This document shows positions 13,408 to 34,903 of a stretch of 43,286 nucleotides of DNA, piece after piece (the first letter of the stretch is position 1; each line of letters begins with the position of its first letter). Under the pieces are notes generated by a model, which worked only from the letters and a program-made list of their open reading frames with translations, was not told the origin of the DNA and made no database searches. This stretch comes from a virus. The stretch is taken from the IMG/VR virus record IMGVR_UViG_3300024518_002978, positions 1 through 43,286 of that record. The stretch is one strand, 5' to 3'. The translations under genes were made by a program, and so were the position numbers.

Positions 13408-13758
13408 CTACGGTTGGTACTGCCACTCTTTGCCGTCCCGTTCCATTTTGAGTCTCAATTCTCGTCGAATAATCCGCATTTCCGGTGGAGCGCTGATGCC
13501 GAGGTACACTTCGCCCTGCCGCACGTCCGTCACCATGATCCGCACGTTCGCCCCGATACGGACTGTTTCGCCGATCCACATTGTGACCATTGAAACAACC
13601 CGGTCGTCGTCCTGTGTTACCGCCCGGCTTTCGACTGGCGTTCCCGCTGGTGCCCGTATCTTCAGCGTTAGATCTTCCGTTGTCCGCCCGGCCAGTACCG
13701 CTTGGATGTCGTCGCCGATTTCCACAACGCTTCCAATAGTTCGCCGCAGCACAAGCAT
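13408..13758 (-). CDS. csrA: Tandem (single-chain) CsrA-like RNA-binding protein
   Basis: 116 residues from an ATG with ACAGGAGG seven bases upstream; an in-frame ATG at 13812, in ATGA overlap with the previous gene, would add 18 residues. Residues 1-47 align without gaps to CsrA: MLVLRRTIGSVVEIGDDI...RAPAG, keeping Leu4, Arg6, Gly9, Gly15 and Ala36-Pro37. Residues 55-108 form a second CsrA domain (MWIGETVRIG...LGISAPPE...RRELRLKM) with an offset of 54. CsrA proteins bind GGA motifs in mRNA leaders as homodimers. Repeat 1 keeps the beta-1 contacts but has Ser at the Arg44 position. Repeat 2 keeps Arg98 (Arg44 equivalent) but lost the beta-1 arginines. Confidence 0.85.
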   Translation of the reverse strand: MLVLRRTIGSVVEIGDDIQAVLAGRTTEDLTLKIRAPAGTPVESRAVTQDDDRVVSMVTMWIGETVRIGANVRIMVTDVRQGEVYLGISAPPEMRIIRRELRLKMERDGKEWQYQP

Positions 13759-13808
13759 CGGCTGCCCTCCTGTGTAGTTGTGCCGCCAGTTCCGGGCGGT
13801 TGTCGGGT

Positions 13809-14036
13809 TCATCGCCCTGCGTCCGGTTTCCACGGTTGCAGCCGTTCCGCACGCTTCAGCACCGCCACCTCGTGCGCGTGCTTCAAGGCGAGCGCTTGCA
13901 CCCTGTGTAGCTGGTTCAGCGTTCGGTGGTACTGCTGTTTCCAGTCTTCTAACGCCTGCGCATAAATACGGGCGCCAATCAAGGCGCCCATACCAAACGA
14001 ACACGCAAGCCCCGTCACGACTAACACCGCTTCCAT
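13809..14036 (-). CDS. Small membrane-anchored coiled-coil protein
   Basis: 75 residues from an ATG with CAGGAG eight bases upstream. N-terminal membrane segment (AVLVVTGLACSFGMGALIGA) and a C-terminal helix with heptad-like pattern (LEDWKQQYHRTLNQLHRVQALALKHAHEVAVLKRAERL). The layout resembles inner-membrane spanins or other phage membrane accessories, but its place among early regulators argues for an early membrane role. Its TGA overlaps the alternative ATG of the csrA-like gene. Confidence 0.6.
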   Translation of the reverse strand: MEAVLVVTGLACSFGMGALIGARIYAQALEDWKQQYHRTLNQLHRVQALALKHAHEVAVLKRAERLQPWKPDAGR

Positions 14037-14136: not shown

Positions 14137-14424
14137 TCACCGGCTGGCCAGATAATCCCGGCACGCCTTGGTTCGCTGGATCGCGTTGTCAATCGTACGG
14201 CTGGCATTCCCCTGCGAACGTAGGTATTCCCCCACTTCCGCGGACACTCTGACCGATATTGTTACACGCGGCGCGTCCACTTTCGGTCGTCCCATTTTTT
14301 TGCCCGGCCCGGCCACACGTGGCCCGCCCCGGTTTTCCACTGGTTCCGCTGCCTTCTTCTTCCTGGCTGGCTTCCGCCGTGTGCTGCCCTGTTCCGCTGC
14401 CTTCTTCTTGGTTCGCTTCTTCAT
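14137..14424 (-). CDS. AT-hook / ribbon-helix-helix-like DNA-binding protein
   Basis: 95 residues, ATGA overlap with the upstream gene. The first half is very basic (KKRTKKKAAEQGSTRRKPAR) and includes KKMGRPKV, an AT-hook-type core. The second half (RVTISVRVSAEVGEYLRSQG, then RTIDNAIQRTKACRDYL) has the strand-helix-helix pattern of MetJ/Arc-type dimers. It is probably a transcriptional regulator of the early region. The two operator-bearing promoters just upstream are natural candidates for its targets. Confidence 0.65.
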   Translation of the reverse strand: MKKRTKKKAAEQGSTRRKPARKKKAAEPVENRGGPRVAGPGKKMGRPKVDAPRVTISVRVSAEVGEYLRSQGNASRTIDNAIQRTKACRDYLASR

Positions 14425-14642
14425 CTGTCCAACCCTTCGATAATCTGCGCGGCCAGCTCGGCCGCTTGTGAGGAAATTCCGAGATCCTGCCAGCCGACCG
14501 GCTTCGATGTCTGGTTCAGCCGCTCCGAAATCTGCACGCTGATGACTTCCAGCATTTTGGCCGCTGTGTTGATCGTCTTCTGTTGGCGTCGCAACGCGTC
14601 GTGGGCTGTTTCTTGCTGTGGTTCGCTTGGTGTTCTGGCCAT
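14421..14642 (-). CDS. Small helical early protein
   Basis: 73 residues from an ATG with GGAGCGGAAACA before it. An in-frame ATG at 14681 adds 13 residues and coincides with the predicted transcription start. The product is helical (HDALRRQQKTINTAAKMLEVISVQISERLNQ) with a C-terminal SSQAAELAAQIIEGL. First gene behind promoter 14688-14715. No family recognised. Confidence 0.6.
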   Translation of the reverse strand: MARTPSEPQQETAHDALRRQQKTINTAAKMLEVISVQISERLNQTSKPVGWQDLGISSQAAELAAQIIEGLDR

Positions 14643-33137: not shown

Positions 33138-33493
33138 CGGAAGAATTCCGTTCCTTTAGCTTCTGTCCACTGGTCGTCGACCCGTTGCAACCAGACCGTT
33201 TTTAACCCGTTGTCTGGATCGCCGATTCTGATAACACGGCACCGAACACAGTCGATCCGGTACGTGTCTTCCGATCCCACTGTTACCGCCGCTCCGACTT
33301 CCATGCGATAGTCGTACACAAACGACCGACCGTTCTGGTTTTCGTCGTTTACGCCGTCACGGTGCACGATGGCCGTTTGCGAAAGTACGGCAGCCCTATC
33401 GCCGCCGATTTCCCGCGTGACCGGTTCGCCATTGAAACGCAACTCCAACGGCGAACCGACCGCGGCTGCTCGTGCATCGAACGCCGATGTCAT
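33134..33493 (-). CDS. Head-tail connector-like protein
   Basis: 119 residues from an ATG in ATGA overlap with the capsid gene. MTSAFDARAAAVGSPLELRF, then beta segments (SFVYDYRMEVGAAVTVGSED, RCRVIRIGDPDNGLKTVWL). First gene after the capsid gene, the usual connector position. Family not recognised. Confidence 0.55.
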   Translation of the reverse strand: MTSAFDARAAAVGSPLELRFNGEPVTREIGGDRAAVLSQTAIVHRDGVNDENQNGRSFVYDYRMEVGAAVTVGSEDTYRIDCVRCRVIRIGDPDNGLKTVWLQRVDDQWTEAKGTEFFR

Positions 33494-34455
33494 GTCGTAA
33501 CGTTTTCGAACAGTCCATTGCACGCCGTGTGTAGCTCGACTTCGTCAACGTCGTGCCGAACACGAACAATATCCGACCGCACCGTTTCGTCCCGGTACGT
33601 TTCGACAAGCCCGTCTTCCATCGACCCGTCGCCAGACCAGTGGAACGTTCGCCCAACGCACGGCTCGCGGAAATCATCGCCAGTCGCAATGCGTCCGATC
33701 CATGCGTACTCGTTCGACCAGATTGCAGCCGGCACGGCTGTCTGGCCTTCTTCGGCCGTGTTCTTGGTGCCGCCCGCGACAATCAGGTTGTCAATTGCCA
33801 ACGCTTCCGCGACCGCTTGAACGGAAATATTGCCCGCCCTTGCGTCCTGGAATCCCTGGTATTTCACCCGCTCCACAATCTGCGCACAGTTGCGAAGATT
33901 TCGGAACACCTGGTTAGTGATCACCATTGCGTTTGGCCACAGTCCGCTCGCGATGTACAGCGCCTGAATTTTGGCTTCCACGTCTGTGATCGGTACCGCG
34001 TTCGCGATATCGTCCCATTCGTTGGTTATCGTGGTCGCTGTGTACGTCGTTGCGTTGAAAATCATAGCGGCTATCCGCTTCTCCTGATTTTCAATAACCG
34101 CCCGGTGCGCACGCGCTGTCGAGATCACTTCCGCGTCGAAGTAATTGGCGTACATCTTGGCTTCACGGTCGTCAATCGGTTCCTCCGCACCGTGTTCTTC
34201 CGTGGCGTACGTGGCCGGCTCGAACGTGAAGTTCCCGCGGCTGTACCCTGATCCGGGCGCCCGGGCTGTATCGCGATTCTGCAGCAACTGCTCGATCGGA
34301 ATCTTCCCGAAACTTCCGGCTTGTGACGCAACCTGCGTCGCTCGCAAAACACGGTGGCCGATGAATCCCGCGGAATCCATTGCCAGTTCGAATTCCTGCA
34401 TACTCTCGGCCAAGTCCGGCCGCTGGGTTGCAAGTGCTGATGTTGGTGACGGCAT
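33490..34455 (-). CDS. Major capsid protein (HK97-fold, gpE-like)
   Basis: 321 residues. The N-arm region (RPDLAESMQEFELAMDSAGF) is followed by PATYATEEHGAEEPIDDREA, AEVISTARAHRAVIENQEKR and the A-domain-like stretch WPNAMVITNQVFRNLRN...AVAEALAIDNLIVAGG...WSNEYAWIG. The E-loop/spine pattern and size fit HK97-fold capsid proteins of the kind processed by no N-terminal delta domain. Position after protease and decoration genes matches lambda E. Confidence 0.8.
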   Translation of the reverse strand: MPSPTSALATQRPDLAESMQEFELAMDSAGFIGHRVLRATQVASQAGSFGKIPIEQLLQNRDTARAPGSGYSRGNFTFEPATYATEEHGAEEPIDDREAKMYANYFDAEVISTARAHRAVIENQEKRIAAMIFNATTYTATTITNEWDDIANAVPITDVEAKIQALYIASGLWPNAMVITNQVFRNLRNCAQIVERVKYQGFQDARAGNISVQAVAEALAIDNLIVAGGTKNTAEEGQTAVPAAIWSNEYAWIGRIATGDDFREPCVGRTFHWSGDGSMEDGLVETYRDETVRSDIVRVRHDVDEVELHTACNGLFENVTT

Positions 34456-34519: not shown

Positions 34520-34903
34520 CTACACCGCGGCAGTGTCTCCGTGGGCGTTGTACAGAACTTCGATGATGTCGCCGTCGGCTGTTGCCGCCTGCAACGCCGT
34601 GCCCACCTGAAATGCGGTCGCCTGTGCTGTGTCCTGCACTTTCCCGGCCGCTTCCGTGTAGACTGTCGCACCGACCGCCAGTGCTTCCACTGCGATCATT
34701 TTGTGCGTTCCCGCTGCCGATCGCAGTTTGACCGCGATTTTGTCGCCAGCCGCGAACGCTTCCCGCGTTGCGATTCCGACTTCCTTTTCGGCCAGTCCGG
34801 CCGTCACGATTTTCCCATCAGCCTCAAGAACAACCCGGGCGAACTGCGCGATAGCCGCGTCCGCTTCGAATGTTCGTGTGTTGCTGTCCACTTGTTCCGC
34901 CAT
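34520..34903 (-). CDS. Capsid decoration (cement) protein
   Basis: 127 residues: ADAAIAQFARVVLEADGKIV, EKEVGIATREAFAAGDKIAV, and ALAVGATVYTEAAGKVQDT, the DUF2190-like pattern of small capsid cement proteins that bind the outer shell and stabilise it. It occupies the lambda D position between protease/scaffold and capsid. Confidence 0.75.
   Translation of the reverse strand: MAEQVDSNTRTFEADAAIAQFARVVLEADGKIVTAGLAEKEVGIATREAFAAGDKIAVKLRSAAGTHKMIAVEALAVGATVYTEAAGKVQDTAQATAFQVGTALQAATADGDIIEVLYNAHGDTAAV

Follow-up and report, generated by a model that had tools for sequence, protein, structure and literature searches.

How would a CsrA protein act on RNA if both halves of its dimer were carried by one chain and only one of the two binding surfaces were intact? 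The question is raised by a gene at positions 13408-13758 of the window, by which we mean the entire 43,286-base virus record that was analyzed. In CsrA dimers, each RNA surface combines beta-1 from one protomer with beta-5 from its partner, and residues L4 and R44 are critical (PMC7652899). An earlier note on this DNA had proposed that the gene encodes two CsrA-like domains in a single chain, and that only the pairing of beta-1 from repeat 1 with beta-5 from repeat 2 gives a full RNA site. The relevant features are listed below.

13408..13758, minus strand: tandem CsrA gene, 116 amino acids plus stop, ATG start (translation; PF02599 matched twice)
13766..13771, minus strand: AGGAGG Shine-Dalgarno, seven bases upstream of the start ATG at 13758, within CUACACAGGAGG
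13597..13758, minus strand: repeat 1 (residues 1-54), with L4 and R6 of beta-1 kept, S at position 44, and no C-terminal helix
13741..13749, minus strand: codons for L4, R5, and R6, the beta-1 half of the intact composite site (position table, 14 tandem proteins)
13627..13629, minus strand: codon for S44, the beta-5 half of the degenerate site (position table)
13411..13596, minus strand: repeat 2 (residues 55-116), with V58/M60/W61 in beta-1, R98 (position 44) kept, and a predicted helix at 99-108
13576..13587, minus strand: codons for V58, T59, M60, and W61, the beta-1 half of the degenerate site (position table)
13465..13467, minus strand: codon for R98, which is position 44 of repeat 2 and the beta-5 half of the intact composite site (position table)

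Translation of the reverse complement yields an intact frame of 116 codons without a stop. A longer frame from GTG 14004 overlaps another ORF, and a start there is not needed. The protein reaches the gathering score of Pfam PF02599 in two stretches, with 67 bits in total compared to a cut-off of 27. When each repeat is searched alone, repeat 2 matches with an E-value of 3e-12, and repeat 1 falls slightly below the cut-off (25.9 bits, E-value 9.6e-6). Against an HMM from which the window's sequence was left out, repeat 1 reaches 26.9 bits and repeat 2 reaches 49.5 bits, compared to 12.9 and 15.2 bits, respectively, for the highest-scoring of 20,000 shuffles. Neither match is due to chance, since both far exceed the shuffle scores. 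A genome search agrees with Pfam in that one open frame of the record bears both CsrA matches, and it reveals no second CsrA in the record. The protein misses the cut-off of the NCBIfam equivalog csrA (TIGR00202; 56.9 bits versus 70.1) and therefore is a divergent homolog rather than a standard CsrA. The two domains proposed earlier thus represent a true duplication. The position table likewise bears out the offset of 54 between the repeats and the naming of L4, R5, R6, S44, V58, M60, W61, and R98. Position 7 of repeat 1 is T, where CsrA has R or K.

Structure prediction gives a consistent picture of the repeats. An AlphaFold run with 12 tandem sequences produced a model with a pLDDT of 86.9 and a pTM of 0.76, and a run with 7 sequences gave agreeing strands. 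Repeat 2 is predicted to form the complete five-strand, one-helix protomer (strands 55-61, 65-68, 72-80, 83-89, and 96-98, then the canonical helix 99-108), whereas repeat 1 has the matching CsrA strands and lacks the helix. Repeat 2 of the model overlays whole CsrA protomers at 1.3-1.8 Å, including 57 of 57 residues of 2bti_B at 1.4 Å and 56 of 56 residues of 5z38 at 1.3 Å. The full-length model is a weak match to the PDB (the first model reached a Foldseek E-value of 0.1 at best), and its Z-scores are modest, with unrelated beta-sandwiches equaling CsrA by this measure. Matches of the model to FHA-like folds and to a pore-forming toxin were set aside as generic beta-sandwich similarity. Chains of RsmN align with model residues from 1 to 102, spanning both repeats, which is consistent with, although no proof of, strand exchange between the predicted repeats. 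Sequence and prediction together indicate a CsrA fold of the repeats. The earlier note had named two outcomes that would speak against its proposal, namely a repeat 2 without this fold or a protein that is one continuous CsrA variant, and on both points the result favors the note.

The note had also called for a search for other tandem CsrA proteins, and this search returned 13 more: 10 from Peribacterales-type Patescibacteria, one from another Patescibacterium, one from a planctomycete, and one from Pseudomonas phage vsMR. The 10 Peribacterales-type proteins are found in 9 of the 74 genomes of the order, whose name is our reading of a MAG title. A wider sample of the phylum (n = 380) added one tandem CsrA (G594), and 398 Planctomycetia genomes contained one (G884). 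In a phylum-wide Planctomycetota sample (n = 392) searched with a cruder profile, no match to both repeats was seen among the matches listed. A single csrA gene adjoins the tandem gene in most of the Peribacterales loci that carry one. For example, on a Ca. Peribacteraceae MAG contig (L021:4001-5339), a gene for a 105-residue tandem CsrA is followed by two single csrA genes. At another Peribacterales locus (L155:1301-2596, from G079), two different tandem csrA genes lie side by side on the same strand. The protein of phage vsMR (OR687460.1; L227:3001-3279 of an unannotated record) has 92 residues with two CsrA stretches. The tandem architecture is rare but recurrent.

Single-sequence searches of viral contigs, genome contigs, phages, and plasmids yielded no close relative of the 116-residue protein, and the CsrAs that a tandem-shaped query retrieved from viruses have one domain each. 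Long tblastn spans in L005, L007, and L009 proved to be single-domain CsrAs. PHROG families 5527 and 31572 were candidate tandem families because of their long models, but the match of E. coli CsrA is confined to the first half of each, and the PHROG CsrA families are single-domain. In a library of viral protein models, the window's model is matched best by UniProt A0A6J5RUQ1, a 114-residue 'Carbon storage regulator' from an uncultured Caudovirales phage (TM 0.72, 2.4 Å over 112 alignment columns). Unnamed phage proteins of 81-113 residues (e.g., A0A6G5YEX0 and A0A2I7QSD7) match the whole fold of the model with 15-22% identity, and these may be further single-chain CsrA-like proteins. Another virus record (L008:3726-5150) holds two csrA-like genes ∼1 kb apart, the second of which lacks the MLxLxR motif of beta-1 and keeps the position-44 arginine. 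Judged by these residues, its product is a possible half-site CsrA. A domain tree, based on 50 columns and having long branches, does not distinguish between a single and a multiple origin of the fusions. The repeats are strongly alike within G066 and G069 and weakly alike in the window and G020, which suggests duplications that may differ in age or rate.

Across the 14 tandem proteins, R6 and R44 are present without exception in the outer pair of strands (repeat 1 beta-1 with repeat 2 beta-5), and L4 is present in all but one, which has I. In the inner pair, 11 of the 14 retain R6 and R44, and both are lost or unrecognizable in the proteins of the window, vsMR, and the Peribacterales genome G020. 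In the window protein, L4, R6, and R44 of the inner site are all replaced (S44; V58/M60/W61). In vsMR, beta-5 of repeat 1 is wholly unrecognizable and the outer site alone is kept. Loss of R44 in repeat 1 coincides with loss of R6 in repeat 2 (Fisher p 0.003, a value that ignores relatedness, the three proteins coming from unrelated sources). Coinciding inner losses are expected if these residues form one site across the repeats. The joint loss of the inner halves and the constant retention of the outer site support the cross-repeat pairing of beta-1 and beta-5 on which the earlier note relied. The same three proteins have the shortest repeat spacing (40, 54, and 54 versus 55-70), measured for vsMR and G020 after extrapolation of repeat 2 over a few residues. 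The duplication, the intact and lost site residues, and the recurrence of the architecture in several lineages are all evident from sequence comparison. That two unrelated double CsrAs share the same lopsided design suggests that a natural 'one-handed' form of CsrA may exist.

The record encodes terminase, portal, head protease, RecT, a YqaJ/RecE-type nuclease, a RuvC-like resolvase, an O/DnaD-like replication protein, and a ParB-methyltransferase fusion. Nearly all of its likely genes are on the minus strand. The tandem csrA gene belongs to the recombination/replication cluster, where its neighbors on either side are the resolvase gene and a small ORF. Positions 14137-14433 encode a BrnA/antitoxin-like protein of 98 residues, with no recognized toxin adjoining. 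The 4-mer usage of the record is nearest to that of its phage relatives L003 and L004, followed by planctomycetes (0.75). No CsrA was found in these two terminase relatives, both of which are fragments. A Planctomycetia chromosome (G233) encodes a portal 42% identical to that of the record and, in the same neighborhood, relatives of the record's protease and of its genes at 34520-34903 and 33490-34455. The record is probably a planctomycete phage, because both its 4-mer usage and the related head genes in G233 point there. Peribacterales are unlikely as hosts, with a 4-mer value of 0.49 and no terminase match, although an empty answer of this kind proves little.

About 20 kb upstream of the G233 portal is a canonical one-domain csrA gene beside integrase, LexA-like, and ParB-like genes, and related prophages may therefore carry ordinary csrA. 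The early region of a Planctomycetia prophage (L234:11951-15766) contains an integrase, an HTH gene, a LexA-like gene, a canonical csrA, and a ParB-like gene, with related head genes 20 kb further. The likely hosts are rich in csrA: Three Planctomycetia genomes (G837, G838, and G839) have 6-10 CsrA matches each, which is unusually many. A role in host CsrA networks, as proposed in the earlier note, is plausible because the likely hosts carry so many csrA genes.

We consider it reasonably probable that the protein is a single-chain CsrA pseudo-dimer with one ANGGA-binding site, which would bind RNA but could not bridge. Its two repeats would pair like two CsrA protomers, making a second subunit unnecessary. 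The outer strands at the chain ends (beta-1 in repeat 1, beta-5 in repeat 2) would make one complete CsrA RNA site, and the site formed by the inner strands beside the linker would be lost. The inner beta-5 and beta-1 are expected to lie parallel, side by side, in the dimer, and the linker would have to run back along the inner site. A short linker would leave no space for RNA there. The protein would then be a monovalent reader of ANGGA that blocks a Shine-Dalgarno or covers a GGA otherwise available to a host CsrA, and it could not tie two GGA motifs together. We infer a role in repressing phage early mRNAs, in competing with the many host CsrA copies, or in both. The protein might repress phage or host mRNAs in which one GGA overlies the ribosome site, or it might compete with host CsrAs by covering GGA motifs.

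The pattern of residues also bears on three other readings. It is unlikely that both composite sites bind, with R45 and the repeat 2 beta-1 backbone standing in, to give a linked bivalent CsrA that bridges two GGA motifs. This reading draws on the fact that R45 lies directly beside S44, such that the 'dead' site is not arginine-free and R45 could rescue part of it. In addition, 11 of the 14 tandem CsrAs keep both sites, and the inner-site register is loose in several of them because the repeat 1 strand with R44 is one residue shorter. However, V58, M60, and W61 take the places of L4, R6, and R7 in repeat 2, both halves are jointly lost in three unrelated proteins, and beta-5 in repeat 1 of vsMR is beyond recognition. 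Less likely again is a poison subunit, in which one repeat would swap strands with a host CsrA protomer to form hybrid dimers of altered site number. CsrA protomers do interlock by strand exchange (PMC7652899), the likely hosts offer 6-10 copies as partners, and most Peribacterales tandem genes have a single csrA as neighbor. Against this, the covalent link strongly favors intramolecular pairing, the inner strands have diverged, and CsrA heterodimers have not been demonstrated according to PMC7366521.

The least likely of these readings is that RNA binding has been lost altogether, leaving either a CsrA-like scaffold for a protein partner, comparable to CsrA bound by FliW or CesT, or a gene in decay. 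The repeats are indeed highly divergent, with long tree branches and low identity to any relative, but the RNA-contact residues of one site have been kept precisely while the rest diverged. The gene also has a good Shine-Dalgarno and an intact frame within an early gene cluster. A one-site pseudo-dimer remains the reading we favor.

The Shine-Dalgarno within CUACACAGGAGG resembles a CsrA site, and autoregulation via this element of the gene's own leader is a guess. The leader of the tandem csrA gene folds no better than shuffles (z 0.34). Before the gene, CAACTACACAGG (13766-13778) is nearly repeated by CAGCTACACAGG (13902-13913) in the upstream ORF, and this near-repeat looks like a CsrA site. 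The occurrence of GGA near starts in phage leaders is confounded with Shine-Dalgarno sequences, and Rfam gave no hit in the record, hence no known CsrB-type sponge RNA.

A broader proposal can be made more tentatively, and we hold it with greater doubt than our reading of the window protein. Tandem CsrAs might be natural pseudo-dimers within one chain that recur as a class among phages and bacteria with small genomes. Shortening of the linker would accompany decay of the inner site, giving monovalent 'cap' proteins that occupy GGA without bridging and thereby reshape post-transcriptional control in host and phage.

Phage-borne csrA genes are already well known, having been reported in 30 of 2517 phage genomes (1.2%; PMC7366521). 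In contrast, a search of 5.4 million open papers for CsrA in tandem, double, or fused form returned nothing relevant, and as far as can be found in open papers, the tandem and natural single-site forms are new. Whereas canonical CsrA is a one-domain chain of ∼65-75 residues that forms a homodimer with two equivalent RNA surfaces bearing L4 and R44, the window protein has two domains in 116 residues and one complete surface. It contains the domain of the CsrA/RsmA/RsmE family (PF02599) twice and keeps L4, R6, and R44 of one site. The known phage CsrAs compared here are single-domain.

RsmN/RsmF of Pseudomonas aeruginosa has a rearranged CsrA fold (PDB title) and aligns with both repeats of the model. 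It is nevertheless a single CsrA-sized chain (structures of ∼65 residues) and no tandem. In RsmN/RsmF, a helix is inserted between beta-2 and beta-3. This insertion is absent from the model, in which strands 11-14 and 18-25 are separated by a short turn.

The Peribacterales tandems (L021, L100, L105, L106, L108, L152, L153, L155, and L156) have the same architecture and can be aligned end to end, with 31% identity to P0002. They differ in being chromosomal, and most lie beside a single csrA and keep both sites, although L156 has the same one-site pattern as the window protein. The vsMR protein has the same two stretches and the outer site only, with ∼14 residues condensed between the repeats. 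The 114-residue phage entry A0A6J5RUQ1 is similar and is likened to the window protein by model fold only.

Until now, engineered mixed dimers have been the means of dissecting how CsrA bridges two GGA motifs. When one subunit carried R44A, the dimers showed that bridging and full repression of glgC both require two sites (Mercante et al. 2009, as cited in PMC7652899). As described in that citation, these dimers likewise have one intact and one dead RNA surface. The window protein differs from them in being natural, in being a single chain, and in having both halves of the dead site changed. Natural single-chain versions with one or two sites would allow a direct test of the value of bridging, and they would show a symmetric dimer turning asymmetric after gene fusion. 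They would also suggest a simple means by which a phage could interfere with a CsrA-rich host.
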